Made by a program: the position numbers and the translations under genes
From: Nitrosomonas supralitoralis
Lineage (GTDB): Bacteria > Pseudomonadota > Gammaproteobacteria > Burkholderiales > Nitrosomonadaceae
Length of the DNA: 64,000 nucleotides
NCBI RefSeq assembly: GCF_003011925.2
Contig: NZ_PXXU01000002.1
Location: 1-64,000, forward strand
Reading direction: 5' to 3'
In this document: positions 5,824 through 47,335 of the stretch, piece by piece
Layout of the letters: each line of letters starts with the position of its first letter
Numbering within the stretch: the first letter of the stretch is position 1
Notes under the pieces: generated by a model
The model's database searches: none
What the model was told of the DNA's origin: nothing
The model's input: only the letters and a program-made list of their open reading frames with translations

Positions 5824-6789
5824 CTAGTTCGGGTAAAACGTACGAGCGAGAACATCGGCAATATCTTTTCGCACCTGCTGGGCCTCATTCACAATGTTTC
5901 CAAGGCGAGCAAAATCATGAATCATTCCAGGATAAATTTTGACACGAGTAGAGACACCCGCAGCTTTCATTTTATTAGCATACTCGATTCCTTCGTCCAG
6001 CAAAGGATCAAATTCTGCCAAAATCAGAAGAGCCGGAGCAAGGTTACACAAATTGCCTGCTTGTAGCGGTGCAAAACGCCAATCGGTTCGATCAGCCTCA
6101 TTGCGAAGATAATTCATAAACATCCATTGCAGCGTTTTTTCTTCAAGCAAATACCCCTGTGCAAAACGCCGATGCGATTCAGTGTTCTGCCAAGCACCCG
6201 TGCAGGGATAAAGTAATATCTGACAGACCGGTTGTGGCCACATTTCTTCACGAGCTGTAATTGTCAATCCTGTGGCCAATGTCCCTCCTGCGCTATCTCC
6301 ACCTACTGCCAACCGTGTTGGATCCAAAGAATATTCGGCTCCGGTTGATAATAGCCATTGATAGGCATCCTGTGCATCCTGTACTGCCGTAGGAAAACGA
6401 TATTCTGGCGCCAAGCGATAAGCCACATTTAGTACATAACAAGGTGTCAACGCTGCGAAAGACCGACATAGAGAATCGTGCGACTCAAGCCCGCCAATGC
6501 AGTACCCTCCTCCGTGAAAATAGAGTAACACCGGGCAGGGATCTGTAACATGCGCGAACTCGATTGGTTTATATAGCCGCGCATTAACTGCTCCTCCGTC
6601 ACGACACGATATAGAAACTTCAGTCACGTTTGCAACGGTCGGTCCGGAAACATCCAGTATTTGTGTTGAAAGGTCATAATCTAATCGCGCTTTCTCGGGC
6701 GCCAGCATATGCATCACAGTTTTTTCCCCGCAAATTATGCTTTTCTCAACAAGCTCAAGAAATGCCGCCAAATCCTCATCAAGTGGCAT
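5824..6789 (-). CDS. Alpha/beta hydrolase, hormone-sensitive-lipase family
   Basis: This 321-residue cytosolic esterase or amidase-like enzyme has the HSL oxyanion motif His92-Gly-Gly-Gly95. The nucleophile is Ser166 in Gly-Asp-Ser-Ala-Gly-Gly, with Asp261 (in AEFDPL) and His291 (in MIHDF) completing the triad. There is no signal peptide. A GGAG ribosome site lies about 6 bases before the ATG. It sits between a ferric-siderophore receptor and an export pump, in line with both, which suggests a siderophore-related role such as cleaving an ester in the imported ferric siderophore to release iron. That is inference from context; HSL enzymes have a wide substrate range and Fes/IroE proteins belong to other families. 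It might instead trim a biosynthetic intermediate. Confidence 0.85.
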   Translation of the reverse strand: MPLDEDLAAFLELVEKSIICGEKTVMHMLAPEKARLDYDLSTQILDVSGPTVANVTEVSISCRDGGAVNARLYKPIEFAHVTDPCPVLLYFHGGGYCIGGLESHDSLCRSFAALTPCYVLNVAYRLAPEYRFPTAVQDAQDAYQWLLSTGAEYSLDPTRLAVGGDSAGGTLATGLTITAREEMWPQPVCQILLYPCTGAWQNTESHRRFAQGYLLEEKTLQWMFMNYLRNEADRTDWRFAPLQAGNLCNLAPALLILAEFDPLLDEGIEYANKMKAAGVSTRVKIYPGMIHDFARLGNIVNEAQQVRKDIADVLARTFYPN

Positions 6790-6824
6790 GAATACTCCAA
6801 AGAAAAAAAGAAATGAGATAGATT

Positions 6825-6863
6825 GTGCGTAAATACAAAAAACCTTTGCGTGTATTTACGCAC
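6825..6863. repeat. Intergenic hairpin with 12-bp perfect arms
   Basis: Arms GTGCGTAAATAC (6825-6836) and GTATTTACGCAC (6852-6863) are perfect inverted repeats with a 15-base loop. An extra TGCGT at 6847-6851 can pair with ACGCA at 6858-6862, giving a second, competing hairpin. It lies in the 116-base gap between the receptor stop and the hydrolase start. A T-rich tract follows about 15 bases later on the minus strand, so it may act as a leaky terminator or mRNA-stability hairpin in the operon. Confidence 0.6.
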
Positions 6864-6905
6864 GAATGTGCACAGTACTCTTAATACAAATCCAGCGGAC
6901 GTTAC

Positions 6906-9158
6906 CTAGAATCTAAAGGTCAGCGTACCGATCACTGTGCGCTCGGTACCTAGATAGTGTCTACCGAAAAATGTTGAGGCAATATATCTATTATCAAAGA
7001 TATTGCTGGCATTGATGGAAAAAAGCATGGGACCTCTTTCATAACGCAGCGTTGCATCGAACAATGTAAATGCTGGCGTTGAACTTATATTTGTTTCCTC
7101 ATTAAAAACTCTACCCACATAGCGCACCCCGCCACCCAACCCAAACCCTCGCAACCAGTCAATACCTAATCCGCCGAAAGAATAGTCCAGCCACCCGGAT
7201 GTCATCGTCGTTGGAACTTGCACAGGCATTTTGCCCTTGAAATCAGTATCCTTGACATTCTCCACATCTTGATAAGTAAAAGAACCGATCATATTCAAGC
7301 CACGCAACAATTCTGCACGTGCTTCCAGTTCAACCCCACGTGATCTCACTTCGCCCAATTGCATAAAGCGAAAACCCGTTTCATCGGTTGGATCCCGTGA
7401 CAATACATTTGTTTTGGTGAGATCAAAAAATGCTACAGTGTAAAGACTTCTTCCTCTCACAGGCTGATACTTGATACCCGCCTCAAATTGTTCGCCGCGT
7501 GTGGGATCAAAAGGCTTGTTGCTGGAGTCAAAACCTGCTTGTGGCAGGAATGATTGCGAATAACTAAAATAAGGCGCAATACCATTCGAGTACAAGTAGG
7601 TCAAACCCACTCGTCCGGTAAATGCGCTATCTTTAACATTTGTTGTTGAATCATTTAAAAAATCATTATCTTTAGAAATAATTCGGTCATACCGCCCGCT
7701 CAGTGTCAGAATCCAATTTTCGTTATAACGTATTTGATCCTGAATATAAAAACCCAATTGATCAATCCTTTGTTTTGCATTTATCCCAAGCGCATCCGGC
7801 CTCGGAATTGGCACACCATATACAGGATTCAAAATATCAATACCGGGTGGAATGAAGCCATTATTGTAACCTCCAAAATACCTGAGAGATGCATTGGTCT
7901 GATTCCAATCTGCGCCCAACAACACGGTATGATTGAATGGACCGGTATCAAGCCTGGCTTGCAAATGAGTATCTAGAACAATCTGGTTCAACCTCTCGTT
8001 GGTAGCATAAGCGCCCCTGTCGGCGAATGTGGGTTGATCAACCGTATTAAATCCATTCGAAAACAAATCCTGGAAACGCCCGGTTTGCTGTGTATAGCGA
8101 AAATTCTGGCGCGCAGTCAAGACTTCATTGAAATGATGTTCAATTTGATAACTGAACGAGGATTGATTGGTATTGTATCGTGCAAATTTCGGATCACTTT
8201 GTAATACATTTGAAAAACCACCATCGGGCGCAGCAATGTAAAAAGGGGATGATCCGCTACGATTATGAAGTATGTCACCCATCAATGTGATAGAGGTAGC
8301 ATTTGTCGGGCGCCAAGTTATTGATGGAGCAATGTAAAAACGCTCATTATGCGCACGTTCACCGCCAGTGTTGGGATATCTGACTTGCGTATCACTATCC
8401 AGTGCTGTCGTGACTAATCGGAACATTATGGTTCCATCCTTATTGACAGCACCTACATCAGCCGCAATTCGCTTACGATCAAAATTGCCATACTGGAATT
8501 CAATTTCACGAACTGGATTTGCATTCGGTCTTTTAGTAACACGATTTACAATACCACCGGCGTCACCACGACCAAACATCACTGAAGAAGGACCCCGCAA
8601 TACATCGACTCGTTCTAGGCCATAGGTATCTGTAATAAATGAATTAAAAAGCAACCCTTGCGCCGCATTACTCAAGCCATCACGGAAATTAGCAGTGGTA
8701 AGCGCGTTAAAACCTCTCATTAACAGATATTCAAAACCACGACCATCAAATCCAAACTGATCAACAGTAACTCCAGGAACATAGCGTAAGGCTTCGGTAA
8801 AATTTTGAACACTTCGCATGTCCATTTCATTACGCGTTACCACAGAAATCGATTGTGGGATCTCCAGAATGGGTGTATCCGTCTTTGTTGCGGTGATGCT
8901 ACGCTTGGCAACATATCCGATGATATCTTCGGGACCTTTTCCCTCGATTGTAACCATGGGGAAAACTGTTGGATCCGATTCCTCGGATTCTGCTTTGGAT
9001 GCAGTAGCGGGGGTTATTTGCTGTTTTTTTGATTGATCTGCAGGCTCTTGCTTCGGCTGAGCATAACTTTCCATAGATAGCGGAAGAATTATCAGCTGTG
9101 AAACAAAAAACATGAACGAATATTTCAGATGGATTTTAAGTATACTCAAGAGCTTCAT
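6906..9158 (-). CDS. TonB-dependent ferric-siderophore outer-membrane receptor
   Basis: This 750-residue receptor has a signal peptide of about 34 residues ending near SYA/Q and a likely TonB box within PTVFPMVTIEGKG. The plug domain contains EIPQSISVVTRNEM and the RGFNALTTANFRDG region. A 22-strand barrel follows and ends in Phe (LTFRF), as outer-membrane porins and receptors do. No N-terminal STN signalling domain is present, so it should not act as a FecA-type transmembrane signaller; this fits a PvdS-like rather than a FecI/FecR circuit. It is closest in style to FhuA/FpvA/FoxA-like siderophore receptors. The gene is 51 bases after the ornithine monooxygenase gene on the same strand. No clear Shine-Dalgarno sequence precedes the ATG. 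The likely ligand is the siderophore made by this locus. Confidence 0.93.
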   Translation of the reverse strand: MKLLSILKIHLKYSFMFFVSQLIILPLSMESYAQPKQEPADQSKKQQITPATASKAESEESDPTVFPMVTIEGKGPEDIIGYVAKRSITATKTDTPILEIPQSISVVTRNEMDMRSVQNFTEALRYVPGVTVDQFGFDGRGFEYLLMRGFNALTTANFRDGLSNAAQGLLFNSFITDTYGLERVDVLRGPSSVMFGRGDAGGIVNRVTKRPNANPVREIEFQYGNFDRKRIAADVGAVNKDGTIMFRLVTTALDSDTQVRYPNTGGERAHNERFYIAPSITWRPTNATSITLMGDILHNRSGSSPFYIAAPDGGFSNVLQSDPKFARYNTNQSSFSYQIEHHFNEVLTARQNFRYTQQTGRFQDLFSNGFNTVDQPTFADRGAYATNERLNQIVLDTHLQARLDTGPFNHTVLLGADWNQTNASLRYFGGYNNGFIPPGIDILNPVYGVPIPRPDALGINAKQRIDQLGFYIQDQIRYNENWILTLSGRYDRIISKDNDFLNDSTTNVKDSAFTGRVGLTYLYSNGIAPYFSYSQSFLPQAGFDSSNKPFDPTRGEQFEAGIKYQPVRGRSLYTVAFFDLTKTNVLSRDPTDETGFRFMQLGEVRSRGVELEARAELLRGLNMIGSFTYQDVENVKDTDFKGKMPVQVPTTMTSGWLDYSFGGLGIDWLRGFGLGGGVRYVGRVFNEETNISSTPAFTLFDATLRYERGPMLFSINASNIFDNRYIASTFFGRHYLGTERTVIGTLTFRF

Positions 9159-9176
9159 ATTATTATTTATATATTA

Positions 9177-9209: not shown

Positions 9210-10511
9210 CTAAGTTAGCGCAGAAGTCACTGAGCGCTGTGATTGATTGTTTTTTGATTGATTGATGACATTCATCAATTCTTGCGCTATTTCAGCGGTA
9301 CGCACCGCTGTCACTGACAGCAAGGTATCGCTTAAGCCATGGCTGCCCTCACAAGCGCCTTGAAGAAAAATTGCCGGCTTAAACGACGGTACGCTGTTTA
9401 TCCGATATTGACGATTAACCGAGCAATCCTTCAAATAAGGCATGAGCGGTGCCAATAATGATTTGTAATGATCGCGGTGATATCCTGTTGCCAGCACCAC
9501 AGCATCATAGATTAAGGTTTTCTCGCAATCGTTATTCAAGTCATGAAGGGTGAACTGAATACCATCTGATTGAGCTTTAGTCTTTCTAACTGCATGACGT
9601 CGTAAAAAACGATGTTGATTAATGCCAGCAACTTTCTGTTGATAAAACACATTATAAATCTGCTCGATCAAAACCAGGTCTGGTGCTGCATAGTTGGTAT
9701 GCCAAAACTCTCCGAGTATTGTTTCTCGCTCCTGTACCGGTGTATTAAAAACAAAATCGGTAAAATCAGTATTAAAAATTTCATTGACAAAGGGACTATC
9801 ATCCGATGGTTTGATTGAACGAGCACGCATAATCAAATCAATTTGTATGCTGTTAAATCGTTGATGCAAATCCATAAAAATTTCGGATGCGCTTTGTCCC
9901 GCACCAACTACAGCAATTTTTCTTACATGCGCATGCTGTTTAATCCGCTTCAGATAGTCATTTGAATGAAGAACTCGCGCATCTTCTCGTATCGGTACAA
10001 AACAATCCGGAATTCTGGGCTGACCACCAATACTGACCACCAAGCTTCGGGTTAATCGCTCATGTACGACTTGCCATTTATCGCGGGAACGAACTCGTAG
10101 TAACGCAATCTCATCACCCAATTTTTCCGGTAAAACTTCAATTACCTCTTCACCATAGGCGCAGCAATGATCAAAATGAGCCGCGGCCCACGCAAGGTAA
10201 TCATTAAACTCACGACGACTCGGAAAAAAAGTTTTTAGGTTAATGAAATCCTGCAGCCTTCTCTTTTCATGCAAATAATTAATAAACGTGAAATGACTAG
10301 CCGGATTTCGCGTCGTGACCAAATCTTTGAGGAAAGAAACTTGCATATGTGCGTTATCCAGCATCATGTTTGCGTGCCACGCGAAGCTAGGCTGCTTCTC
10401 AATAAAAAAAAACTCAGCGGGACAATCAACCTGTTTCTTCTCTTCAAGAGTTATAGCAAGCGCTATATTGGATGGACCAAAACCAATACCGATCAAATCA
10501 AAAATTTTCAT
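9210..10511 (-). CDS. L-ornithine N5-monooxygenase (siderophore hydroxylase)
   Basis: This 433-residue flavoenzyme of the PvdA/SidA/IucD family should convert L-ornithine to N5-hydroxyornithine using FAD, NADPH and O2, the first step to a hydroxamate iron ligand. The N-terminal FAD motif is Gly-Ile-Gly-Phe-Gly-Pro-Ser-Asn (residues 8-15). The NADPH-binding motif VVGAGQSASEIF sits mid-protein and the conserved ATGYHRD is near the C-terminus. I chose the ATG at 10511 because the FAD fold starts there and AAGGA lies 8-10 bases upstream; the open frame extends 42 further residues without family similarity. It begins 10 bases after the acyltransferase stop. Lysine as substrate (IucD-like) cannot be excluded from sequence alone, but the NRPS context favours ornithine. 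Confidence 0.93.
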   Translation of the reverse strand: MKIFDLIGIGFGPSNIALAITLEEKKQVDCPAEFFFIEKQPSFAWHANMMLDNAHMQVSFLKDLVTTRNPASHFTFINYLHEKRRLQDFINLKTFFPSRREFNDYLAWAAAHFDHCCAYGEEVIEVLPEKLGDEIALLRVRSRDKWQVVHERLTRSLVVSIGGQPRIPDCFVPIREDARVLHSNDYLKRIKQHAHVRKIAVVGAGQSASEIFMDLHQRFNSIQIDLIMRARSIKPSDDSPFVNEIFNTDFTDFVFNTPVQERETILGEFWHTNYAAPDLVLIEQIYNVFYQQKVAGINQHRFLRRHAVRKTKAQSDGIQFTLHDLNNDCEKTLIYDAVVLATGYHRDHYKSLLAPLMPYLKDCSVNRQYRINSVPSFKPAIFLQGACEGSHGLSDTLLSVTAVRTAEIAQELMNVINQSKNNQSQRSVTSALT

Positions 10512-10521
10512 GACGCAATCC

Positions 10522-11628
10522 TTAGGATATTGAAACAGACTGAGATAACGAATTAAGATGCGGAACCCACATTTGTTCAGCAAAAAAATGTTCACGTGAC
10601 AACATGCCAAGCATCGCGCGCTTATGAGGAAATGCAAATTCCTTTACGTTTTCATAGCCACACTGCGTAAGGTTCCGTATCATCTTGTAGTTATCTGTAC
10701 GAGGCTCAATCACAAGGCGCCGCGTTCTATGATCATCAAGAAATAAAAAATGCGAAATAGATGGAAGCCAGGCTGTAACAAAAGGCTTACCACGCATATG
10801 TGGCTCTCCAATTAATACGTGCCAGCCTCGATCGAAATCATTTACATCATAATGTGGCGAGATCCGGTCTTCTTTTGCCCAATAAATTTCAAAATAACCA
10901 AATGGTTCATCATCAAAACAACCAATCAAGCTGATTACATGTGGGTCTGCTTCGATAGCTGCGAGATAAGCAAGATGCTTAGATAAATCACCTTCTTGTT
11001 GCCAGAATTCTGCTACAACTGGATCGTTCATCCAGCGATTGAAACAACTTAGGTCAGCTGCAGGATCGATTGCTCGAAAAGACAAGGTACGACCCAGCCA
11101 CGAAATATATCGTTGATAAACTTTCCCCATAGGTTTTGGCGGTCGAAGTGGATGTCGGCGCCCATGACTGACGACATAGTGAATAGGAAAATCCCGAACA
11201 GAGTTTGAGGGGCACCATACTCTGGCTTGCTGCCAAAACAGATCTACATAAACTGTAATCTGATTATCCTCATCCATAAACAAAACACCAGAATCAAATA
11301 GCTCCTTTAATTGACCACAGGGAATAAATAGAGATAATTTTTTCTGGTGGGGATAGTTCACTATTGAAGCCTCTATGGCTGCCAGCAATTCAGTCACATC
11401 AGGATAGTCAAAAGAAGGATCCGCCCATTCCAATCTCAGCTGATCAAATTGTTTATATAAATGCCAGAGAGTTTCTTTCCCATTTTTAATTTCTTTGACA
11501 CGCAGCATTTGATCTTGATACGTAATACCAAAGCAAACTTGATCCGGGCCGGATATCAAGCGAACCGGAAGTATCTTTTGCTCCATCAACAACTCATAAG
11601 ATTGATCATTTAATTGAAATTGCTTCAT
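10522..11628 (-). CDS. Siderophore GNAT acyltransferase (IucB/AlcB/PvdY type)
   Basis: This 368-residue protein has a C-terminal GNAT domain of the siderophore class, with signature stretches YFEIYWAKEDRI, GWHVLIGEPHMRGK and RLVIEPRTDNYKMI as in IucB, RhbD and AlcB. The N-terminal half is the poorly conserved extension found in several of these proteins. The expected reaction is transfer of an acyl group, usually acetyl, from CoA to the N-hydroxyl-amine of the hydroxylated side chain, forming the hydroxamate. The gene precedes the N5-monooxygenase with a 10-base gap, so the pair supplies acyl-hydroxyornithine to the NRPS. GGGA lies about 8 bases upstream of the ATG. The acyl donor (acetyl, hydroxybutyryl or longer) is not determined. 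No formyltransferase gene is in the window, which argues against formyl-hydroxyornithine. Confidence 0.9.
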   Translation of the reverse strand: MKQFQLNDQSYELLMEQKILPVRLISGPDQVCFGITYQDQMLRVKEIKNGKETLWHLYKQFDQLRLEWADPSFDYPDVTELLAAIEASIVNYPHQKKLSLFIPCGQLKELFDSGVLFMDEDNQITVYVDLFWQQARVWCPSNSVRDFPIHYVVSHGRRHPLRPPKPMGKVYQRYISWLGRTLSFRAIDPAADLSCFNRWMNDPVVAEFWQQEGDLSKHLAYLAAIEADPHVISLIGCFDDEPFGYFEIYWAKEDRISPHYDVNDFDRGWHVLIGEPHMRGKPFVTAWLPSISHFLFLDDHRTRRLVIEPRTDNYKMIRNLTQCGYENVKEFAFPHKRAMLGMLSREHFFAEQMWVPHLNSLSQSVSIS

Positions 11629-11689
11629 TCATTCCCAATAAAAAAGATTATTTTTGTATTTTGCGATTTCCTTAATTGTTGAAGACGAA

Positions 11690-11704
11690 TGAGAAGTATT
11701 ATTA
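11690..11704. promoter_or_regulatory. Possible Fur box between divergent siderophore arms
   Basis: The stretch TGAGAAG-T-ATTATTA matches the 7-1-7 Fur consensus (TGATAAT-N-ATTATCA) at 11 of 14 positions. It is 62 bases upstream of the acyltransferase start in the 298-base divergent gap, a sensible place for iron control of the left arm. The match is moderate and was found by eye. Confidence 0.4.
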
Positions 11705-11926
11705 TTTATATTTTTCGTTCATATTGAGATTTATCACTACCTTATAAGCGCAGAAATAAAGCTGTAAAGCGGCCATGCTATTGGAAAGTAGCGACAAACT
11801 ACTGGACATGAATACTCTGCGAGTAACCGCTAATTTACTGAAAATTGCTGCAGACAGTGTCGTGGTAGAGTAAATATTTGTCTTCACCATTCGTCATTAT
11901 TGATATCTTTTCCAAATGGATAAACA

Positions 11927-13597
11927 ATGCTGAAGTATCTTATTAAACAATCCAAATCCTTACTTGTAAGTGCGTCAATTGCCAGCATAGTGCATGGAGT
12001 TTGCAGTGTGCTGCTGCTTGCACAAATCAGCGCCGCACTGACAACCGCCGAAGCGGATAACGGAAAAATGGCATTCATATTCGCGGCGACAGCATTCTGC
12101 GTCATGGTGAGTTATGTGGTGGCTGCCATTTTGTTTGAACGGCTAGGACAGCGCGCGCACGCCGAGCTTCGCGGTTTTATTGCAAAACGTGTGATTGCCG
12201 CTGATTACCGACAACTCGAATTACTGGGCGCTGCGCGTATACAGTCCGCACTTTCCGAACATTGCACTCGTGTAGCCGAATTTTTCGTTAGTTTTCCTGT
12301 AATCCTGACAAATGCTGTCGTAGTTGCCGGTTGCTTGGTTTACATGGCTTTTCTGTCTTGGCAGGTTTTCTTATTAGCGCTCCTTGTTATCGGATTTGGT
12401 TCGCTTGGATACCATCTTGCCCACCTTCGCGCCATACGGCACCTGGATATTGCCGCCGAGGAACAGGACAACTTATTCGCTTATTTTCGTTCACTCACGG
12501 ACGGCGCAAAGGAATTACGTCTTAATCGAGACAAACGCACTGCTTTCTATAATGATGTGCTTGGGCAATCAATTGAGAAAGTGCGTAAAGAACGGACGCT
12601 TGGCATGTCCATTTTTGTAGCCTCAGCAGGCTGGGGGAATTTTCTGATTTATGCATTTATTGGCATGGTGCTATTCATGCTGGTCGGCGATATTCCCGAT
12701 CGAACATTGATCATGACGGGATATGCGCTGGTATTTGTTTATATGTTGGGACCGCTCGAAGCTCTGTTATTGAATATTCCCCGCGCAAATCTGGCACAAG
12801 TCTCGGCTGAACGCATCGATGAAATTACTCGCTCCATGTCTTCTTCCGAATCGCAAACCCATAAAGTCGAATTGCCGCCATTGCAATCCATTAGACTCGA
12901 AAGTGTATTACACCGCTACTATCATGAACAGAAAGATGAAATGTTTACGCTAGGACCAGTAGATTTGGAATTTCATCCTGGAGAAATTACTTTCCTGGTT
13001 GGAGGTAATGGCAGCGGCAAAACAACTTTAGCAAAATTGCTGGTAGGCCTCTATTCACCGGAAGAAGGAAAGATCATTCTTAATGGTGTAATTATCGATG
13101 ATATGAATCGTGATTATTACAGGCAGTTATTTTCGACAATTTTTTCCGATTTTCATCTCTTTGATCGATTGCTTGAAACAAGGCATGAGAGTGATCTGGA
13201 TAAAAAGGGAAACGAGCTTTTAACAAAATTGCACTTACAGCATAAAGTAAAAATCCAGAATGGTGCCTTTACTACGCTTACGTTATCTCAAGGACAGCGC
13301 AAACGCTTGGCTCTTGCGATCTCTTATCTTGAAAATCGTCCATTTCTGGTATTTGATGAATGGGCCGCTGATCAGGATCCTGTTTTTAAGGAAATCTTCT
13401 ATCATGAATTGCTCCCTGAGTTACGTGCAATGGGCAAAACAATATTAGTAATTTCCCACGATGATCGTTATTTTCACTTAGCCGATCGCCTTATACGCAT
13501 GGAAAACGGCCGTTTGACTCAGGTTAATGCATGGCCTTCAGAAACCGAATCTGAAACAATCGCCTCATCGCTGATATTAGCTCATGGCGTAGTTTAA
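11927..13597 (+). CDS. Cyclic-peptide/siderophore ABC exporter, PvdE/SyrD family
   Basis: This 556-residue half-transporter has about six N-terminal membrane helices fused to one ATPase domain. It shows Walker A Gly-Gly-Asn-Gly-Ser-Gly-Lys-Thr-Thr near residue 360, the signature LSQGQRKRLAL near 452 and Walker B LVFDEWAADQDP near 474. The Phe-Asp-Glu-Trp-Ala variant and overall length are those of the SyrD/PvdE cyclic-peptide exporter family. In pyoverdine producers PvdE carries the acylated precursor to the periplasm, where it is matured. Here the gene heads a plus-strand operon with a PepSY protein 4 bases later and then the acyl ligase and the acylase. This supports an equivalent role for the lipopeptide made at 19647-44846. 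A weak GGA site precedes the ATG. Confidence 0.9.
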   Translation: MLKYLIKQSKSLLVSASIASIVHGVCSVLLLAQISAALTTAEADNGKMAFIFAATAFCVMVSYVVAAILFERLGQRAHAELRGFIAKRVIAADYRQLELLGAARIQSALSEHCTRVAEFFVSFPVILTNAVVVAGCLVYMAFLSWQVFLLALLVIGFGSLGYHLAHLRAIRHLDIAAEEQDNLFAYFRSLTDGAKELRLNRDKRTAFYNDVLGQSIEKVRKERTLGMSIFVASAGWGNFLIYAFIGMVLFMLVGDIPDRTLIMTGYALVFVYMLGPLEALLLNIPRANLAQVSAERIDEITRSMSSSESQTHKVELPPLQSIRLESVLHRYYHEQKDEMFTLGPVDLEFHPGEITFLVGGNGSGKTTLAKLLVGLYSPEEGKIILNGVIIDDMNRDYYRQLFSTIFSDFHLFDRLLETRHESDLDKKGNELLTKLHLQHKVKIQNGAFTTLTLSQGQRKRLALAISYLENRPFLVFDEWAADQDPVFKEIFYHELLPELRAMGKTILVISHDDRYFHLADRLIRMENGRLTQVNAWPSETESETIASSLILAHGVV

Positions 13598-39555: not shown

Positions 39556-42500
39556 CAATGGATCCTCTTTGCTTTCTGTTTTGGTTGAATATAAGTGCTA
39601 CGTTGCCGTTGCGCCCGATCCAGGTGACGTTGTAAGGATGCATTGCCGGCATCTCCTTGATTTACAAATTTTGCCAAGCTTGCCACGGTGGTATATTTAA
39701 AAAGATCTATGATGGCCATATGAATATTCAAGCGTTCTTCTAGTTTTTGTTTGACTTTGATCAACAATAACGAATGACCTCCCAGATCAAAAAAGTTGTT
39801 TTGTAATCCAACCGGATGAATTTCCAGTACGTCCGACCAGATTTCAGCTATAGCCTTTTCCAGTTCGTTAACCGGCGGGACGTAATCGGTTTTGTCATAT
39901 TGCTCTGGAGAAGGCAGCGCTTTTCGGTCTATTTTCCCGTTAGGATTAAGCGGCAAGATATCCAGAAAAACAAATAAATTGGGGATCATATATTCAGGAA
40001 GCGTTGCCGCTAACGATGTTTTTAACAACGCCGAGCTCAACTGAACCCCGTCATGCGGAGCTAAATAAGCGACTAACCGCAAGCCGCCGAGTCCCTCTTG
40101 AGCCAGCACGGCCACCTCACGCACACCGGTCTGGGCGAGCAGTTGCGCCTCAATCTCGCCCAGTTCAACACGAAAACCCCGAATCTTGATCTGCTGATCG
40201 ACACGACCCAGGTATTCCAGCTGACCTTCATCACGCCAGCGCACCCAATCACCCGTTCGATACAGGCGACCACCCATTGAATCAAATGGATTCGGCACAA
40301 AACGCTCGCTAGTCAAAGCAGTCTGATCAAGATAACCACGCGCTAACCCTTCTCCACCCACATAGAGTTCGCCTATCGCACCTAGCGGCACAAGATTGAG
40401 TTGCGTATCCAGTACATATAAGTTGCGTGCACCAACCGGTCTTCCAATTGGTACATACTCGCCCTCGAAACAAATCCGGTCATCGCTATCAGTATGGCTA
40501 AGCCATGCCGTAGGTGTTATCACGGCTTCAGTTGGACCATATGCATTCACTAGCCGGGCATTCTGGAATGCATCCCGAACAGCTGTCACGTCAGTGACAT
40601 ACCATGCTTCCCCACCTGCGATACAAGTACGAACCGTATGAGCTTTTCCATGCATCAACGGCAGCAGCATTCTCAGATAGGCTGGAGGAAGATGCAGCGT
40701 CGTTATTTGGTGTTTCTCAATCAAGCCCACGAAACCATCTCCTGCCAAATCACTTGTTGAGGAAAGCACCAATGCAGTGCCATGTGTCAGCGGAGTGATC
40801 CATTGCTCGGCAGCCGCATCAAAATTCATGGAGAAAAACATCAATTCACGATCGCCTGGCCGAACATCGTAAATATTCCCAATGGCGTTCAGATGCATGG
40901 ACAGTGGGCCATGCGCAACTGCAACGCCTTTAGGCCGACCGGTTGAACCCGAAGTATAAATAACATAAGCCAAATTATGCTCATGCAGAGCAACCTCGGG
41001 GTTGGTTTCCATCTCAACACTCAGATCAAGCGCATCAAGCGCCAGTATTTCCATACCTTCTTTATGAGGAATCCTTGATTTTATATGCGCTTGTGTCAGC
41101 AGAAATTTAATCCCGCTATTTACAAGCATATAATCTAATCGTTCTTTCGGATATTCCGGGTCAAGCGGAACGTAACCCCCTCCCGCTTTTAGAATGGCCA
41201 AAAGACCTATGATCAATTCAATAGAATTACGCTCGACTGCAATGCCAACGCTCATTTCAGGCTTAACGCCAAGACCGATCAGTCGATGCGCCAGTTGATT
41301 TGATCTGTGATTGAGTTCCGCATAACGCAACTCAATTTGGCCCGAAATCACAGCCACCCTGTGGGGATTACTGTCTGCCTGATGCTCAATCAATTGATGA
41401 ACAGGATGAAACACTGAAACATCAGACTGATTGGTTCCCAAAATTTCAAGCTGCTGTTTATCTTTTTCGCTCAACAGATCAATGTCACCGATTGTCGTGT
41501 TCTGACAACTTGCCAATGCTTCCAGAATGCGCAGGTAATGAGACGCCAATCGTTCAACCCATGAAGAATTGAAAAGTTCGGAAGCATAAATAAAGCTGGC
41601 ATTTACACTACCGTCGGGCAATTCAATCGTTTCTAGTCTAAATTCAAGTTGCGCAGACTGCTCAGGTAGCGAGTAATCGGTAACGGTAAGCCCTGAAAAT
41701 TCCTGAAAATAACGGTAATCCTTCAATAAATGATTGATAGTCACCTGAAATAACGGGCTATGCCGTAAATCACGCTGAGGATGCAATGACTCTACCAATT
41801 GTTCGAAGGGAAGATCCTGATGACTTTGCGCATTAATCGCAGCCTCCCGGGTTTGAATCAGGAGTTCATCAAGCAGCATACGGCCATCCAACTGGCTTCG
41901 CAAAACCTGTGTATTGACAAAAAATCCAATTAAACCCGCTGTCTCAACCCGGTTGCGATTAGCGACTGGAATGCCAACGCGAATATCCTGTTGTCCCGTA
42001 TACCGAAATAAAAAAGCTTGGAAGGCTGTCAGTAAGGTTATAAAGAGTGTTGCTCCATGACGCAACGCCAACTGACGCAACTGGTTCAGCACATCGAGAG
42101 GAATGTCGAAACTATAGCGTCCAGCTTGATAGCTTGTAACCGGTTGTCTAACGCGATTGGTTGGAAGTTGTAGAATCGGATGTTCGTCACCTAAGTGATC
42201 ACGCCAGTATGCAAGCTGCCTATCTTTCTCACCCTCTTCCAGCCATTCCAGCTGCCAAAGTGCGTAATCTACATATTGGATTGGTAAATTATCGAGACAG
42301 GCTGATTTCCCTTGTACATGCGCCTGATAAAAAGAGGCGAGCTCATTCAGTAAGATTTGCACGGAAACCCCATCCGAAACGATGTGATGCATGACGATTA
42401 CAAAAATAATCTCGTTCTCATTTACCTGAATTAAGGCAATGCGCAGTAATGGGCCTTGTGTTAAATCGAAAGGAGCCGAGATGATCTGCTGCATTTCTTT

Positions 42501-44846
42501 TACAACTCTTGCCTCACGTTCTAGCATGGCGATATCACGTAAATCGATATCAGTAATTATGTTAAGTGTTTTCGGATGAATGACTTGTTCAACCGCACCA
42601 TCAGCACCGGCGCGAAAAATCGTGCGCAATGATTCATGTCGCGCGATCAAGTCCTCAATACTTGCATTGAATGCTTGCTTATTCAGCGCGCCTGCCAGTC
42701 GCAATGCATGCTGCACGTTATAGGCGTTGCTTAATGGATCAAGTAGCCAAAGAAACCATAATCGCCGCTGCCCGAAAGATAGAGGTAGCACATTGGCTTT
42801 GCTTCGTATGGGTAAGATGCGGTTTTCAAAAGCTGGCTGAGATGAGCCTGACGTCAAAAGGCATTTGATTTCAGCTGCACATTCATTTAGTCGAGGATTA
42901 TGAAACAAGCTACGCGGAAAAAATTGAATAGACCAATGTTCTGAAATTCGCGCTGCAACCTGGACAGCGGTTAATGAATTACCGCCAATTGCAAAAAAAT
43001 GATCTTCACGTGCCAACACGGCGCGATTTAACACAGATTCCCAAACCGCTGCCAGCGCGATTTCTGTTTCATCAATCAGTGTCTGAGGTAAGCAATTATC
43101 CTTACCGAGAACGACATAACCATGTTCATAAATTGCATATGCATCCAGCGTGCGCTTGAGCCACCCCTGGCGGCAGGCAGCTCGCTGCAGCTTGCCACTT
43201 GATGTCTTGGGCAGGGCACCTGGATTTAACAAAATAACTACAGACAAAGATTCGTGACAGCTTGCACTGACTACTTCACTAAGCGTCTTAATCAATGCCT
43301 CGGCAGAAATCAATTTTTGCGTATTACGAGATACTTCAACGGCTACACCAATGCCTTCACCTTCATTATTTTCCACTGAAAATGCAGCGACTCGTCCTTT
43401 GCGAACAGCTTCCACTTCTTCTTCAATAGTCAACTCAATATCCTGAGGGTAGATATTTTGACCACGGATAATAATGAGATCTTTACATCGCCCCATGATG
43501 TACAACTGCCGGGCATGAATAAAACCAAGATCTCCTGTTCGCAACCAGTATTTTCCTTCGTTATGCACAAAAGCTTGCGCAGTCTCTTGGGAGTGTTGCC
43601 AGTAGCCGCAAGCCAGGCTTGGGCCATCCGTCCATATTTCACCGACACAGCCATCCGCCAATGTAACCCGCTTTTCCGGATCTACAATTTTTATCGAATG
43701 ATTGGATGCCGGGAAGCCACACGCCACGATCGACGCTCCTTCTGCAGCCAATTTTGCGCATCCTAGCGCAAGTGCTTCAGAAGAGAACTGATGGGTTTGC
43801 ATGCCCTCTCCTCGCACCCCTCCGGTCACAAACAACGTGGCCTCCGCTAAGCCATAACAGGGATAAATCGCATCTGATGAAAACCCTACATGGTTAAAGC
43901 ATTCAATAAATGCCTGCATCGTTTTGCTACGCACCGGCTCCGCTCCTGAAAATGCAACACGCCAGGAAGATAAATCGATATCCATTAACTGCGAGCTTCT
44001 AACACGATCGACACAGAGCTGGAAAGCAAAATTGGGAGCGCCACTGACCGTGGCACGATAACGCGAAATAATTTCCAACCAGCGCACAGGTTTTTCGATA
44101 AAAAGGTTGGGAGACATTAATATCGCCGGAATGCCACGATGTATCGGCTGCAATAGCCCACCAATCAAGCCCATATCATGGTAGAGAGGCAACCAACTGA
44201 CAAATATGTCATCTGCGTTGATCGACATTCCCTCTTCAAACGCTTTGGCATTCATCATCAGATTATGATGACTAACCATCACCCCTTTAGGTGTTGAGGT
44301 TGAGCCCGATGTATATTGAAGAAATGCAATCTCGCCTCCCTTCGGAGCATAAGCATGCCATCGTGATGCACTACCCTGATCTATCGTATCTACGGTCAGT
44401 ATAATTGCTTCGGAAAACTGCGTTGTCGTCACATTGGCGATCAGCGGCAGAATCTTGCTGCTGGTAAGAATACAACCTGCCTTTGCATCATCGGCAATCG
44501 CGACCAGTCTCGCAAAATGCCTTTCCCGTAGAGACTCCGGTGGAAAAATCGGTACAGCAATGATGCCTGTATACAGGCACGCCAGGAAACTAATTACATA
44601 GTGTTCATCGTTGTTTAATAGCAATAGTGCTCGCTCACCGGGTGAGAAATGATTTTGCAGTACTGCAGCCAGCGCCCTGACTTGCAAATCAAGTGATGCA
44701 TAATCAAATTTCTTATCAACGAGTATTTCGTTTTGTGCACTAACAACAATCAACGCGGTATCAGTTGGTCGATCGCGCGCCAGTATTTGCATATGCGCAA
44801 CGAAATTATCGGGATAACTGCGAGATGAAATTAATCTTGTATTCAT
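39555..44846 (-). CDS. Lipo-initiation NRPS: FAAL-ACP-C-A-T
   Basis: This 1763-residue protein starts the assembly line. Residues 1 to about 590 are a fatty acyl-AMP ligase (QYTSGST core at 177-183; SWLPLYHDMGLIGG is characteristic of FAALs). A carrier domain follows with Ser624 in IGGNSL. The C domain has HHIVSDG at 820-826, the A domain has its YTSGST core at 1297, and the last carrier has Ser1692 in LGGHSLL. It should activate a free fatty acid, load it on the first carrier and condense it with residue 1. Pocket residues read DAEHIGAIT, for which I cannot name a substrate. The FAAL start marks a lipopeptide product, as in the betaproteobacterial taiwachelin, cupriachelin and variochelin family (recollection). 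It begins 140 bases after the Sfp gene, with AGGT before the ATG. Confidence 0.94.
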   Translation of the reverse strand: MNTRLISSRSYPDNFVAHMQILARDRPTDTALIVVSAQNEILVDKKFDYASLDLQVRALAAVLQNHFSPGERALLLLNNDEHYVISFLACLYTGIIAVPIFPPESLRERHFARLVAIADDAKAGCILTSSKILPLIANVTTTQFSEAIILTVDTIDQGSASRWHAYAPKGGEIAFLQYTSGSTSTPKGVMVSHHNLMMNAKAFEEGMSINADDIFVSWLPLYHDMGLIGGLLQPIHRGIPAILMSPNLFIEKPVRWLEIISRYRATVSGAPNFAFQLCVDRVRSSQLMDIDLSSWRVAFSGAEPVRSKTMQAFIECFNHVGFSSDAIYPCYGLAEATLFVTGGVRGEGMQTHQFSSEALALGCAKLAAEGASIVACGFPASNHSIKIVDPEKRVTLADGCVGEIWTDGPSLACGYWQHSQETAQAFVHNEGKYWLRTGDLGFIHARQLYIMGRCKDLIIIRGQNIYPQDIELTIEEEVEAVRKGRVAAFSVENNEGEGIGVAVEVSRNTQKLISAEALIKTLSEVVSASCHESLSVVILLNPGALPKTSSGKLQRAACRQGWLKRTLDAYAIYEHGYVVLGKDNCLPQTLIDETEIALAAVWESVLNRAVLAREDHFFAIGGNSLTAVQVAARISEHWSIQFFPRSLFHNPRLNECAAEIKCLLTSGSSQPAFENRILPIRSKANVLPLSFGQRRLWFLWLLDPLSNAYNVQHALRLAGALNKQAFNASIEDLIARHESLRTIFRAGADGAVEQVIHPKTLNIITDIDLRDIAMLEREARVVKEMQQIISAPFDLTQGPLLRIALIQVNENEIIFVIVMHHIVSDGVSVQILLNELASFYQAHVQGKSACLDNLPIQYVDYALWQLEWLEEGEKDRQLAYWRDHLGDEHPILQLPTNRVRQPVTSYQAGRYSFDIPLDVLNQLRQLALRHGATLFITLLTAFQAFLFRYTGQQDIRVGIPVANRNRVETAGLIGFFVNTQVLRSQLDGRMLLDELLIQTREAAINAQSHQDLPFEQLVESLHPQRDLRHSPLFQVTINHLLKDYRYFQEFSGLTVTDYSLPEQSAQLEFRLETIELPDGSVNASFIYASELFNSSWVERLASHYLRILEALASCQNTTIGDIDLLSEKDKQQLEILGTNQSDVSVFHPVHQLIEHQADSNPHRVAVISGQIELRYAELNHRSNQLAHRLIGLGVKPEMSVGIAVERNSIELIIGLLAILKAGGGYVPLDPEYPKERLDYMLVNSGIKFLLTQAHIKSRIPHKEGMEILALDALDLSVEMETNPEVALHEHNLAYVIYTSGSTGRPKGVAVAHGPLSMHLNAIGNIYDVRPGDRELMFFSMNFDAAAEQWITPLTHGTALVLSSTSDLAGDGFVGLIEKHQITTLHLPPAYLRMLLPLMHGKAHTVRTCIAGGEAWYVTDVTAVRDAFQNARLVNAYGPTEAVITPTAWLSHTDSDDRICFEGEYVPIGRPVGARNLYVLDTQLNLVPLGAIGELYVGGEGLARGYLDQTALTSERFVPNPFDSMGGRLYRTGDWVRWRDEGQLEYLGRVDQQIKIRGFRVELGEIEAQLLAQTGVREVAVLAQEGLGGLRLVAYLAPHDGVQLSSALLKTSLAATLPEYMIPNLFVFLDILPLNPNGKIDRKALPSPEQYDKTDYVPPVNELEKAIAEIWSDVLEIHPVGLQNNFFDLGGHSLLLIKVKQKLEERLNIHMAIIDLFKYTTVASLAKFVNQGDAGNASLQRHLDRAQRQRSTYIQPKQKAKRIH

Positions 44847-44985
44847 TTTTATACCTAATCAATTTGTATTTATTGACACAAATAAAAGATTTTATAATCC
44901 AAACCTGTATTCAATGGTTGATCGCTTGCCCGCGACCCGGCTTTCAATCGGGTCATGTTGCTTCTTGAAAACAAAGTGGTAAGAA

Positions 44986-45660
44986 TTAATTATGTATTCG
45001 ATGGTTACGCTGATTCGTCAACGCAAGAGCGGCCACATAGTGAAGAGGCGCTTCGATGGACCAGGCCTTGATTTTCGCCCATTCGGGATGGTCATGCGCA
45101 ACGTGATAACTTCCATCATTATTGGTCAGCACAGTAATAGCTGGCAGGTATTCAGCAATCCCGAATCCTAATGCTTTCAATACAGATTCTTTGATGACCC
45201 AGAGATCAATGAAATTTTTATTTGACCAAATCCCCTGGGCACGCTCCTCTGCAGAAAGTACATGAACCCACAGATCCTCGACATCTTTATGGCAATATTC
45301 GATATCAACCCCAATCTCACCTTTTGCAGATAATGCTATCAATGCAAAGTCGCCTGTATGAGAAACATTAAACTCTATGTCGTAATAGGCCGGCAGACGA
45401 GGTTTACCAAACTCGTTCATTTCAATCTGTATTCTATGGGGAGGTAACGCCAAATATTTTGCCAGTAAGCGACGCACAGTTGCGCGTGTCACAATCCCGC
45501 GCACACGATCCTCATGTTGACGAAAGCATTGCAAATGAATCTGTTCACCCACACTCAGCAAAGACCAGTCATTTATCAGTTGCTTCGAATCAAAATCAAA
45601 TTCGAGCAACCAAACCTCAATCTCAGCAGGCACCATTTCAGGCAGATGCAATCGCTTCAC
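44986..45660 (-). CDS. 4'-phosphopantetheinyl transferase, Sfp type
   Basis: This 224-residue enzyme transfers phosphopantetheine from CoA to the carrier-domain serines of the synthases encoded downstream. The two diagnostic motifs are present: Ile-Gly-Val-Asp-Ile-Glu (magnesium site) and LWVIKESVLKALG, the W-x-x-K-E-x-x-x-K signature. The N-terminal FNVSHTGDFALIA also fits. Length is typical of Sfp/EntD proteins. Its start lies 23 bases inside the end of the thioesterase gene, so the two are coupled. At least eight carrier domains in this locus (six T or ACP in the peptide line, the PKS ACP and the loading ACP) need this modification. Confidence 0.93.
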   Translation of the reverse strand: MKRLHLPEMVPAEIEVWLLEFDFDSKQLINDWSLLSVGEQIHLQCFRQHEDRVRGIVTRATVRRLLAKYLALPPHRIQIEMNEFGKPRLPAYYDIEFNVSHTGDFALIALSAKGEIGVDIEYCHKDVEDLWVHVLSAEERAQGIWSNKNFIDLWVIKESVLKALGFGIAEYLPAITVLTNNDGSYHVAHDHPEWAKIKAWSIEAPLHYVAALALTNQRNHRIHN

Positions 45661-46375
45661 GCGGCACCTCCCTATGGCTTTGAAGCAGACGTTTTTTTAA
45701 CATAAACAAAAACCAGTCTTCAGATTGCCGCAGAAAGAAATGCCCTCCATCAAACCAATCCAACGTAAATATTTGAGTGCTTTCCAATCGCCAGTCATTT
45801 AGCTTCGTAGCATTAATCTCATCTGAGCGCCCGGCAAAGCAATGGATAGGAATAGGTAAAGGTGTCAATTGAGAGTATTCAAAGCTCCCACAAACGCGGT
45901 AGTCCATTCTTAACAAATCCAATGTCATTGCCAGAAATTCTTGATTTCCAAACACTTCTTTGGGTGTGCCGCCCTGTTTGCCTAAATCCGCTATTAATGC
46001 AGCATCACTCTGTATATTGCGGTAACGCCGGCTATCCTGATGAGACGGTGCCGCGCAACCCGATACTAGCAAAGCTTTGGGTGGATATGCTTGTCTGGTG
46101 CATAAGCACTGGGCGATACCATAAGCAAGCAAAGCACCCATACTGTGACCAAAAAGTACATATTGCGCAGGCAAAGTAGATGCAAGTTCATCGCACAAAC
46201 TTTGGGTCAATTCTATGTAGCTCTCTTTAGGAAATTCACCCATCCTATTGCCACGACCTGGTAACTCAATCGGCACCAATTTAACCCAGGAAGGCAATAA
46301 CCGCCGCCAGCGAATATACATTGCTGCACTTGCGCCTGCGCATGGTAAACAAAAAAGTGTTAGTGGATTTTGCAT
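45638..46375 (-). CDS. Type II (editing) thioesterase, GrsT/RifR family
   Basis: This 245-residue alpha/beta hydrolase removes wrongly loaded acyl groups from carrier domains and so keeps the assembly line moving. The nucleophile is in GHSMGALLAYG, an acid residue lies in FAGRSDEINA and the histidine in FDGGHFFL. The N-terminus LFCLPCAGASAAMYIRWRR is typical of the family. It sits between the MbtH gene (12-base gap) and the Sfp gene (23-base overlap), a standard NRPS accessory set. It is distinct from the release thioesterase fused to the last NRPS. Confidence 0.93.
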   Translation of the reverse strand: MQNPLTLFCLPCAGASAAMYIRWRRLLPSWVKLVPIELPGRGNRMGEFPKESYIELTQSLCDELASTLPAQYVLFGHSMGALLAYGIAQCLCTRQAYPPKALLVSGCAAPSHQDSRRYRNIQSDAALIADLGKQGGTPKEVFGNQEFLAMTLDLLRMDYRVCGSFEYSQLTPLPIPIHCFAGRSDEINATKLNDWRLESTQIFTLDWFDGGHFFLRQSEDWFLFMLKKRLLQSHREVPREAIASA

Positions 46376-46387
46376 TGGTACATCGCA

Positions 46388-46603
46388 CTAAATTTGATTG
46401 TCCATGAACAATCTCAAGCTCAGCGGACGCATATCAGTCCAGACTTTATCAATGTAATCCAAGCAAGTTTTTTTGTCGCCCAATACGCCAGTATCTTTCC
46501 AGCCGCCTGGAACAGCTTTCCATTCCGGCCAAATAGAATATTGTTCTTCATGATTAACCAGCACACGGAACACGCCATCTTCACGATCAAAGCAACTAGT
46601 CAT
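46388..46603 (-). CDS. MbtH-like NRPS chaperone
   Basis: This 71-residue protein binds NRPS adenylation domains and supports their folding and activity. The family pattern is complete: an N-terminal [10 protein letters not shown], then [12 protein letters not shown], the PGGW turn, CLDYI and the terminal [11 protein letters not shown] chose the ATG at 46603 because the family starts there and GAGG lies about 9 bases upstream; the frame opens 9 bases earlier at a GTG that would overlap that site. It is the first small gene after the sigma factor gene, with a 150-base gap that likely carries a promoter for the synthase operon. Confidence 0.95.
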
Positions 46604-46649
46604 ATCCAACACCTCAAATTTACAAATAAGTAAGTTTTAAATTTTCTTC

Positions 46650-46668
46650 AATAAGAATGCTTCTTATT
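46650..46668. promoter_or_regulatory. Palindrome upstream of mbtH, candidate operator
   Basis: Perfect 8-base arms AATAAGAA (46650-46657) and TTCTTATT (46661-46668) flank TGC. The site is 47 bases upstream of the MbtH start codon, where an operator or promoter element of the 27-kb synthase operon is expected. It only weakly fits the Fur consensus, so another regulator is possible. Confidence 0.4.
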
Positions 46669-46753
46669 TAGATTAGACGAACCGAATCATGAAGAATACA
46701 AAAAAAAGCAAAAAAATTGAGTGTGATTTAATTCCGTGGAGAACAATTTGATA

Positions 46754-47335
46754 TCACTTGTGATTTTTCCTGGTGGTGTTATTGCCAGTCTGTTTCAATA
46801 GAACGCTTTTACAATGCTCTGTAGCCTCATGAATAAGAATATTTGTCAATGAGGTTGAGATATTCAGTTCATCTGCAATCATTCGATGTGTGTATCCATC
46901 TAATCGATAAAGCATAAAGACCCGCTTCGTGCGTTCTGGGAGCTTAGCTAAAGCTTGCGCCATCAATGTTAGATGTTGACGATTGATTGCATTGGTTTCT
47001 GGCATTCCTATCAAAGTCTGAACGAGCAATCCGTCCTCCTCTGACCTAAATAACTCTGTCTCAAATACCCCTCTTCGGTATCGATCAATAGCTAAGTTAC
47101 GTACGATTTGAAATAGATAGGCTAGTGGCTGCTTGACATTCTGCATCGCCGGTATTTCGGTAGCCTTAATATAAGCATCTTGTATGATGTCATCTGAAAG
47201 ATCCCAATCTCCTAAAATTTTGTATGCAGCTCGACGCAATTGCATACGGTTAATAATGAACAAAGCGCTCAGTTCTTGAGTCCAGTTTTCTACAGCTATC
47301 ATCATATTTACATTAATAATTATTATCAGAAACAT
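46754..47335 (-). CDS. ECF sigma factor, PvdS/FecI iron-starvation type
   Basis: This protein (up to 193 residues) has sigma region 2 (RAAYKILGDWDLSDDIIQDAYIK, then FQIVRNLAIDRYRR) and region 4 (LPERTKRVFMLYRLDGYTHRMIADELNIS, a helix-turn-helix). This is the arrangement of iron-starvation sigma factors such as PvdS, PbrA and FecI. No FecR-like anti-sigma gene is adjacent and the local receptor lacks a signalling domain, so control is probably by Fur at the promoter, as for PvdS. A strong Fur box overlaps the first codons of the longest frame, so the real start may be the ATG at 47305 or 47302 (starting MMIAVENW). Neither option has a clear ribosome site. It should direct transcription of the siderophore genes. 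Confidence 0.9.
   Translation of the reverse strand: MFLIIIINVNMMIAVENWTQELSALFIINRMQLRRAAYKILGDWDLSDDIIQDAYIKATEIPAMQNVKQPLAYLFQIVRNLAIDRYRRGVFETELFRSEEDGLLVQTLIGMPETNAINRQHLTLMAQALAKLPERTKRVFMLYRLDGYTHRMIADELNISTSLTNILIHEATEHCKSVLLKQTGNNTTRKNHK
47314..47328 (-). promoter_or_regulatory. Fur box at the sigma-factor gene
   Basis: On the minus strand TGATAATAATTATTA matches the 7-1-7 Fur consensus TGATAAT-N-ATTATCA at 13 of 14 defined positions. It lies within the first ten codons of the longest sigma-factor reading frame, or 9-12 bases before the internal ATG codons. This implies iron repression of the sigma gene and hence of the whole locus. Confidence 0.75.

Follow-up and report, generated by a model that had tools for sequence, protein, structure and literature searches.

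The stretch of DNA analysed here, positions 1 to 64,000 of contig NZ_PXXU01000002.1 of Nitrosomonas supralitoralis (the window; source genome 3.75 Mb), carries a siderophore gene cluster in which an assembly line started by a fatty acyl-AMP ligase (FAAL) lies with a PvdE-type exporter and an N-terminal nucleophile (Ntn) acylase. The acylase, which may remove the acyl tail of the siderophore as an optional step, is the main subject of this text. Profile scans of the open reading frames (ORFs) showed one coherent siderophore region at 21-47335 (Table 1). An earlier sequence-only reading had drawn it as 5824-47335; the pump at 21-5761 also belongs to it, because this gene order recurs in Nitrosomonas relatives. 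All gene parts named by that reading are present: FAAL, ornithine hydroxylase, acyltransferase, a line of non-ribosomal peptide synthetase (NRPS), polyketide synthase (PKS), and again NRPS, exporter, Ntn acylase with a beta-chain Ser, pump, receptor, and sigma factor. Its central picture, a FAAL-started lipopeptide siderophore line in a Nitrosomonas joined by an exporter of the PvdE type and an Ntn acylase, stands. It did not list the MbtH-like protein, phosphopantetheinyl transferase, type II thioesterase, PepSY protein, acyl-CoA ligase, and two sigma boxes.

The left block contains, in order, the resistance-nodulation-division (RND) pump, adaptor, outer-membrane channel, esterase, TonB receptor, ornithine hydroxylase, and GNAT protein. 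Divergent from this block run the PvdE-type exporter, the PepSY protein, the acyl-CoA ligase, and the acylase. The right block, on the minus strand, is composed of the DUF6746 protein, the NRPS/PKS line, phosphopantetheinyl transferase, type II thioesterase, MbtH-like protein, and extracytoplasmic function (ECF) sigma factor. The hydroxylase probably starts further in than 10637, because its ORF overlaps that of the GNAT protein, which is presumably an N-hydroxyornithine acyltransferase, as its family suggests. The best NCBIfam match of the receptor is FhuA (503 bits, under the cut-off of 803), and no STN domain was found in it by Pfam scan. The PepSY_TM protein is possibly a ferrisiderophore reductase. 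The ECF sigma factor appears to be of the iron-starvation type; its orthologues align over 0.82-0.87 of the length of the window ORF, and its true start is probably internal. The DUF6746 protein stands between acylase and NRPS and has an 80% relative in the corresponding stretch of another genome (G091).

Table 1. Genes and sites of the siderophore region in the window (positions are those of the window)
Feature	Position	Strand	Evidence
RND inner-membrane pump (ACR_tran)	21..3155	-	PF00873 449 bits; gap to adaptor -1 bp
Periplasmic adaptor (MFP)	3152..4342	-	TIGR01730 123 bits, cut-off 94.9
Outer-membrane channel (NodT family)	4391..5761	-	TIGR01845 287 bits, cut-off 210
HSL-type alpha/beta hydrolase (esterase)	5824..6789	-	PF07859 236 bits; after receptor in most loci read of Nitrosomonas (g1) and a second genus (g3)
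TonB-dependent siderophore receptor, hydroxamate-receptor-like	6906..9158	-	TIGR01783 315 bits, cut-off 223.5
L-ornithine N5-hydroxylase	9210..10637	-	PF13434 402 bits
GNAT, putative N-hydroxyornithine acyltransferase	10522..11628	-	PF13523 191 bits
Iron-starvation sigma box TAAAT-N16-CGTC, facing GNAT	11684..11708	-	motif match
Iron-starvation sigma box TAAAT-N16-CGTC, facing exporter	11871..11895	+	motif match
PvdE/SyrD-type cyclic peptide ABC exporter	11927..13597	+	TIGR01194 434 bits, cut-off 286
PepSY_TM protein	13602..14852	+	PF03929 196 bits
Fatty acyl-CoA ligase	14969..16582	+	NF004837 561 bits, cut-off 476
Ntn acylase, GL-7-ACA-acylase-like, probable lipoprotein	16663..18888	+	PF01804 385 bits; PDB 1keh 449 bits
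DUF6746 small protein, cluster membership uncertain	19032..19412	-	PF20531 148 bits
NRPS C-A-T-E-C-A-T-C-A-T-TE, three ornithine-type A domains	19647..31577	-	domain scan and A codes; E call motif-based
NRPS C-A-T, serine code DVWHISLIDK	31578..34904	-	domain scan and A code
Type I PKS KS-AT-KR-ACP, AT motif HAFH	34981..39558	-	domain scan and motif
FAAL-ACP-C-A-T, A code DAEHIGAITK (arginine-like)	39555..44846	-	domain scan and A code
Phosphopantetheinyl transferase	44986..45660	-	profile scan
Type II thioesterase	45638..46375	-	profile scan
MbtH-like protein	46388..46612	-	PF03621 81.5 bits
ECF sigma factor	46754..47335	-	PF08281/PF04542

The assembly line runs in the order FAAL-ACP-C-A-T / KS-AT-KR-ACP / C-A-T / C-A-T-E-C-A-T-C-A-T-TE, with a first FAAL-ACP-C-A module followed by PKS and NRPS, as in a FAAL-started line. 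The hydroxylase and acyltransferase genes for iron-chelating ornithine residues accompany it. The AT motif HAFH is taken here to be malonyl-type. Mapping by hand, with the final Lys assumed, gave the A codes DAEHIGAITK, DVWHISLIDK, DGECTGGITK, DGEDHGTVTK, and DGEAVGGVTK in order. The second is presumably the usual serine code; among six relatives in which this module was readable, G010 and G035 have the same code, and G081, G011, G089, and G077 have DILQLGMIWK, which we take to be a glycine code. Since the code of this module varies, the siderophore probably differs at one residue between species. Of the 9 positions read in the first code, 8 agree with the Arg pattern of PMC12283262, the exception being 278, with His in place of Asp. 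The same source lists DGECTGGITK as a code for modified ornithine and DGEDHGTVTK as one for ornithine, and DGEAVGGVTK resembles its DGEACGGVTK; DGEAVGGVTK and DAEHIGAITK themselves were not found in the available portions of PMC12283262. An Asp-type A code and a TauD hydroxylase were not found among the cluster ORFs scanned. The predicted product would be acyl-(Arg + malonate)-Ser/Gly-hydroxamate-ornithines, similar to variochelin.

The acylase had been described as PvdQ-like, which is correct for its kind, a Ser Ntn acylase, and incorrect for its family. Its nearest solved relatives are the glutaryl-7-aminocephalosporanic acid (GL-7-ACA) acylases, with 35-36% identity and a score of 449 bits for 1keh, against 127 bits for PvdQ and 92 bits for MacQ. 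The PvdQ equivalog NF051460 scored 175.5 bits, far under its cut-off of 950. An AlphaFold2 model built from 48 sequences (mean pLDDT 90) matched 1keh with Z 53.4 over 672 residues at 1.8 A, MacQ with Z 40.0, and PvdQ with Z 36.2 over the beta chain. The enzyme is GL-7-ACA-like in sequence and fold, and this is its best match over the whole chain. A PvdQ orthologue was ruled out by the NF051460 score, the nearest solved sequences, and the model comparison.

When the acylase is aligned with solved structures, Ser190 falls at the start of the beta chain. Orthologues from Nitrosomonas, 19 of which were aligned after leaving out a broken copy in G011 and a second copy in G036, are 66-85% identical to the acylase of the window, and all 19 keep the catalytic Ser190, His212, Asn438, and Arg466. 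The lipobox Cys24 is invariant in the same 19; the motif reads LSTC in the window, a less typical form, and L(S/N/G/Q)AC in 11 others displayed, so the enzyme is probably a lipoprotein. The residue at +2 after this Cys is Gln in 17 and His in 2, which under the +2 sorting rule would suit an outer-membrane lipoprotein. Four catalytic residues (Ser, His, Asn, Arg) and seven pocket residues of GL-7-ACA acylase are named in PMC8197700 and were mapped onto the acylase by hand via the solved-structure alignment. The four apolar pocket residues are kept, and the polar Tyr178, Gln248, and Arg255 (numbering of PMC8197700) are replaced by Phe167, Leu238, and Gln245 in 19 of 19. Because of these replacements, the enzyme is not filed as a glutaryl-specific acylase. 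According to the same source, Arg255Ala or Arg255Gly gave GL-7-ACA acylase activity on acyl-homoserine lactones; this result and the substitutions together suggest that the pocket suits an acyl chain without charge. Among 46 distant relatives outside Nitrosomonas (at least 33% identity), the Arg position is occupied by A in 19, G in 9, V, S, T, and R in 4 each, and E and L in 1 each.

The distribution of the acylase was surveyed in 125 genomes of the family, several of which are drafts: 85 of Nitrosomonas, the genus of the window (g1), 23 of another genus (g3), and 17 of two others. A close acylase occurs in 20 of them, all g1. The PKS (E<=1e-200) was matched in 42, of which 24 are g1 and 18 are g3, and it is accompanied by a close acylase in 17 of the former and none of the latter; a distant acylase (30% identical) was found in one g3 genome, G109. 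The seven Nitrosomonas PKS genomes without a close acylase are G018, G024, G031, G077, G078, G082, and G090. Conversely, all 20 close-acylase genomes carry at least part of the synthase line, as three without a PKS match (G036, G040, and G069) have NRPS pieces. Obligatory maturation is unlikely because the line so often lacks a close acylase; tail removal is likely, going by these gene patterns, but would be optional. The idea of a temporary tail in the manner of pyoverdine survives as an analogy, is mistaken about the family, and overstates the obligation.

In a FastTree of exporter, hydroxylase, and GNAT protein from 38 genomes, acylase-bearing genomes stand on both main g1 branches with scattered absences. 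Judged by eye from this one tree, an early gain was followed by about six losses, and the absence in G031 and G082 could be primary. A 42-residue acylase remnant persists in G078, and broken copies or remnants also occur in G011 and G036 (second copy). Together with the absence from seven of the Nitrosomonas PKS genomes, these would agree with an acylase that is inactive or marginal, the siderophore staying acylated as in other betaproteobacteria; against this, the catalytic residues are invariant in the 19 aligned orthologues, and such an outcome is very unlikely.

Relatives of the acylase in named genomes were taken from the best 80 of 572 confirmed loci. Those with 66-77% identity are all Nitrosomonas (5 loci, among them L096 of N. 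nitrosa Nm90), and the other 75 belong to Acidobacteria, Gemmatimonadota, Cyanobacteria, Bacteroidota, and others. The flanks of these 75 (up to 10 kb, often shorter) held no relatives of the receptor, exporter, hydroxylase, GNAT protein, PepSY protein, esterase, adaptor, or channel at E<=1e-15. The isolated matches were to the RND gene (L097), part of an NRPS (L101), part of a PKS (L159), and acyl-CoA ligases (L104). The close acylase was also considered as a general gene of the class, and this was rejected, as only 4 of 369 sample genomes matched at E<=1e-30, the source genome included, the other three at 28-31% identity. Some PF01804 protein is present in 107 of the 125 family genomes, and in all g1 and g3 genomes searched except G054; the second PF01804 protein of the source genome (C136) has other nearest solved relatives than the acylase.

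Two gene arrangements connect the acylase with the cluster. In 15 genomes, the acylase follows the RND gene and ends a GNAT-to-RND operon, with the ligase between them in 13 of these and no ligase between in G037 and G069. In four genomes, namely that of the window, G089, G091, and G053, it ends the PvdE-PepSY-ligase series, and in G051 it lies apart from the cluster together with its ligase. The acyl-CoA ligase directly precedes the acylase in 18 of 20 genomes. Close copies of this ligase occur in 23 genomes, 18 with the copy beside the acylase and five without a close acylase, which indicates that a ligase paralogue exists. In L104, a Gemmatimonadetes locus, an acyl-CoA ligase stands before tandem acylase copies at 6.1-12 kb, and the flanks show no relatives of siderophore genes. 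The pairing of ligase and acylase may thus be older than its connection with the siderophore. Distances between acylases track those between clusters (Mantel r 0.78, 0 of 9999 permutations, 18 genomes; left out were G052, the broken copy in G011, and the second copy in G036). In G089 and G091, about 0.2-0.3 Mb separate the synthase block from the transport block. Beyond the sigma factor, the window carries transposase genes at 48747-54252 (IS21-type IstB, rve, IS110), and housekeeping genes also lie downstream.

Of 12 g3 loci read, 11 (G094, G096-G101, G103, G105, G107, G109) hold exporter, PepSY protein, GNAT protein, hydroxylase, receptor, and esterase, with no pump, ligase, or acylase adjoining; the pump was sought beside the cluster only. 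Genes are rearranged in the twelfth, G112, where relatives of the channel and the adaptor occur. Where acylase-free g1 loci reach far enough (G024, G031, G078, G082, G090), the pump is still present. A second, distant TonB receptor (29%) lies between GNAT protein and exporter in two acylase-free genomes, G031 (L174) and G082 (L177). Trimming in the periplasm before release is favoured because pump, ligase, and acylase adjoin in most acylase genomes and because neither pump nor acylase lies next to the cluster in the 11 g3 loci.

The same operons also bear on a close rival, in which the acylase trims the siderophore after secretion or ferric uptake and the secreted primary product is acylated. 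This could work as a switch from a membrane-bound to a diffusible form, or as recycling with the PepSY protein and esterase. This order is proposed for marinobactins, which Marinobacter acylases are reported to trim, PvdQ homologues having been named there (PMC6562741, PMC11800396), and variochelins were isolated acylated. The receptor, and mostly the esterase too, precede the acylase in one operon in the 15 genomes mentioned above, and the residue at +2 after the lipobox Cys would agree with a place in the outer membrane. In 13 of 20 genomes, the RND gene immediately precedes the ligase-acylase pair, and in 2 of 20 it precedes the acylase by itself; this fits processing before release, as does the joint lack of pump and acylase beside the cluster in 11 of the 12 g3 loci. 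Marinobactin-like trimming of secreted or returning siderophore is possible and the less probable order of events.

The 298-bp divide between GNAT protein and exporter contains two outward TAAAT-N16-CGTC boxes, which we take to be PvdS-type iron-starvation boxes. They are the only two in the window, where 0.41 would be expected, and 10 of 100 shuffles reached two. Among 38 orthologous regions searched for TAAA[TC]-N15-17-CGTC, both boxes are present in 26, one in 9, and none in 3 (G094, G101, G105). A TAAAY-N16-CGTC box heads the acylase-ending operon in 17 of 18 in-place genomes tested, the exception being G036; G052, whose exporter lies far away, was excluded from this count. Upstream of MbtH, a variant TGTAT-N16-CGTC was seen in 5 of 7 genomes read, with TGCAT in G089 and neither in G035. 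The sigma factor had been called Fur-linked. It is indeed an ECF sigma factor, and the link to Fur rests on one weak Fur-like site at its gene (5 mismatches in 19 positions, equalled by 3 of 200 shuffles), the sites in four relatives having 6-9 mismatches with 24-193 of 200 shuffles as good. The cluster shows signs of common iron-starvation control. The gap between esterase and receptor (6790-6905) holds a perfect 13-bp inverted repeat, GTGCGTAAATACA/TGTATTTACGCAC, with a folding z of -2.7 and 3 of 200 shuffles equally good, which could be an operator.

A shared iron regulon could also be all that joins the acylase to the siderophore, its substrates being homoserine lactones or foreign lipopeptides. 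PvdQ cleaves homoserine lactones as well (PMC5474475, PMC6206403), one change confers this activity on GL-7-ACA acylase (PMC8197700), and the 75 relatives outside Nitrosomonas have no relatives of receptor, exporter, or hydroxylase in their flanks. This explanation is unlikely, as a close acylase was found among the 125 family genomes only where at least part of the siderophore line is present, and in either gene arrangement it is the last gene of an operon headed by a box. Taken together, these facts link the acylase most firmly with the siderophore and point to an apolar acyl substrate.

The best explanation as a whole, with a probability of about one half, is an acylated hydroxamate lipopeptide whose tail is cut in the periplasm by an optional acylase. 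In this process, FAAL would load a fatty acid, and the line would add Arg, one malonate, Ser, and three ornithine-type residues, the last of which the hydroxylase and GNAT protein would turn into hydroxamates. The PvdE-type exporter, judging by its family, would carry the acylated product across the inner membrane. In the periplasm, the lipid-anchored GL-7-ACA-related acylase, with its pocket remade for an apolar chain, would cut the amide bond that joins the first residue to the fatty acid. The RND pump would then let the headgroup out, and the adjoining acyl-CoA ligase may salvage the freed fatty acid. The iron-starvation sigma factor would drive both divergent operons. The acylase would be an optional addition in Nitrosomonas, acquired no later than in the ancestor of the acylase-bearing species and lost repeatedly thereafter.

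Several observations weigh against this explanation. The close ligase is found without a close acylase in G023, G024, G045, G063, and G076, and G051 has two ligase copies. Pump and exporter occur without the acylase, which means that neither needs a tail-less substrate. The acylase has Gln at the Arg255 position, and not the Ala or Gly described in PMC8197700. All 20 acylase genomes except G052 have a further, unlinked protein of the penicillin-amidase family, which could act instead. Finally, a Variovorax line described below is accompanied by an acylase, yet variochelins, products of a similarly designed Variovorax line, are isolated acylated, so an acylase beside the line does not necessarily imply that the product lacks its tail.

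In a pyoverdine review (PMC6206403), the reason why ferribactins are acylated and then deacylated is treated as an open question. Siderophore synthesis and export genes are reported in the genome of N. communis (PMC4714114), and according to a 2022 review (PMC9693385), siderophore production was not tested in vitro in any ammonia-oxidising microorganism. No open-licence paper on siderophore deacylation in Nitrosomonas was among the matches listed. What is new here is apparently the independent recruitment of a non-PvdQ acylase and a natural comparison with and without it. The Nitrosomonadaceae offer close lines with exporter and receptor, with or without the acylase, so that a comparison of species could show what tail removal brings about. 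A natural class of substrates for GL-7-ACA-type acylases would also be indicated; if true, this industrially used enzyme group would obtain a physiological substrate, a lipid siderophore.

The pyoverdine system, as we understand it, shares with this cluster an acylated NRPS precursor, a PvdE-type exporter, an Ntn acylase expected in the periplasm, and a PvdS-type box. In contrast, the Nitrosomonas acylase is from another family and probably lipid-anchored, the line is of the FAAL/PKS type, and the acylase is missing in many line-bearing species. Families of the PvdN/O/P type were absent from the cluster ORFs scanned, to which this search was confined. Pyoverdine is known to be deacylated (PMC6206403, PMC5474475), and the deacylation of lipopeptides is also described for glidonin and, by citation, telomycin (PMC10587159). 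In Marinobacter, the acylases BntA, MhtA, and MhtB are reported to act on marinobactins, and the Nitrosomonas acylase would likewise take the tail off a lipopeptide siderophore made by its own host; the Marinobacter enzymes are described as PvdQ homologues (PMC6562741), unlike the Nitrosomonas acylase. With the GL-7-ACA (cephalosporin) acylases, the latter has in common the fold, the catalytic Ser/His/Asn/Arg, and the level of identity given above, and it differs in the three replaced polar pocket residues, the lipobox, and the location in a siderophore operon. A second NRPS region was seen in six family genomes (L074-L079, in G066, G036, G033, G042, G069, and G068) with a distant PvdE (38-43%) and a full-length acylase-family ORF adjoining in 5 of 6, a fragment in G068. 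Three of these loci were scanned, which contain a carbamoyl- and a glycosyltransferase (L074), sulfotransferases (L076), and a methyltransferase and an NRPS with a terminal reductase domain (L077). This looks like a different, prodrug-like pathway that also removes an acyl tail.

Variochelin consists of an acyl chain, Arg + methylmalonate, hydroxy-Asp, Ser, Pro, and two hydroxamate ornithines, and was isolated with its tail (PMC10999976). Variochelins and other FAAL lipopeptides share with the Nitrosomonas line the order FAAL-ACP-C-A(Arg-like)-PKS-NRPS and the Ser and ornithine-type modules. The Nitrosomonas line differs in its AT motif, read as malonate-type, and in the lack, among the ORFs scanned, of the Asp code and TauD, and its acylase is GL-7-ACA-like, not MacQ/PvdQ-like. 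A plasmid of Variovorax sp. PDNC026 carries a related line, with a 51% identical FAAL-NRPS whose first A code, DAEDLGAITK (read by hand), fits the Arg pattern. About 2.2 kb upstream of this gene lies an acylase closest to MacQ (L205:15250-17763, 705 bits); its neighbours further upstream include a major facilitator superfamily transporter and an AHSA1 protein. The combination of a FAAL line and an acylase is thus not unique to Nitrosomonas. Since the acylases of Nitrosomonas and Variovorax differ in family, independent recruitment is suggested. The chances are about even that in Nitrosomonas, an outer-membrane GL-7-ACA-related lipoprotein has independently taken over the job of PvdQ, and that species of the family switch between keeping and removing the tail of the same siderophore through gain or loss of a two-gene acylase/ligase module.

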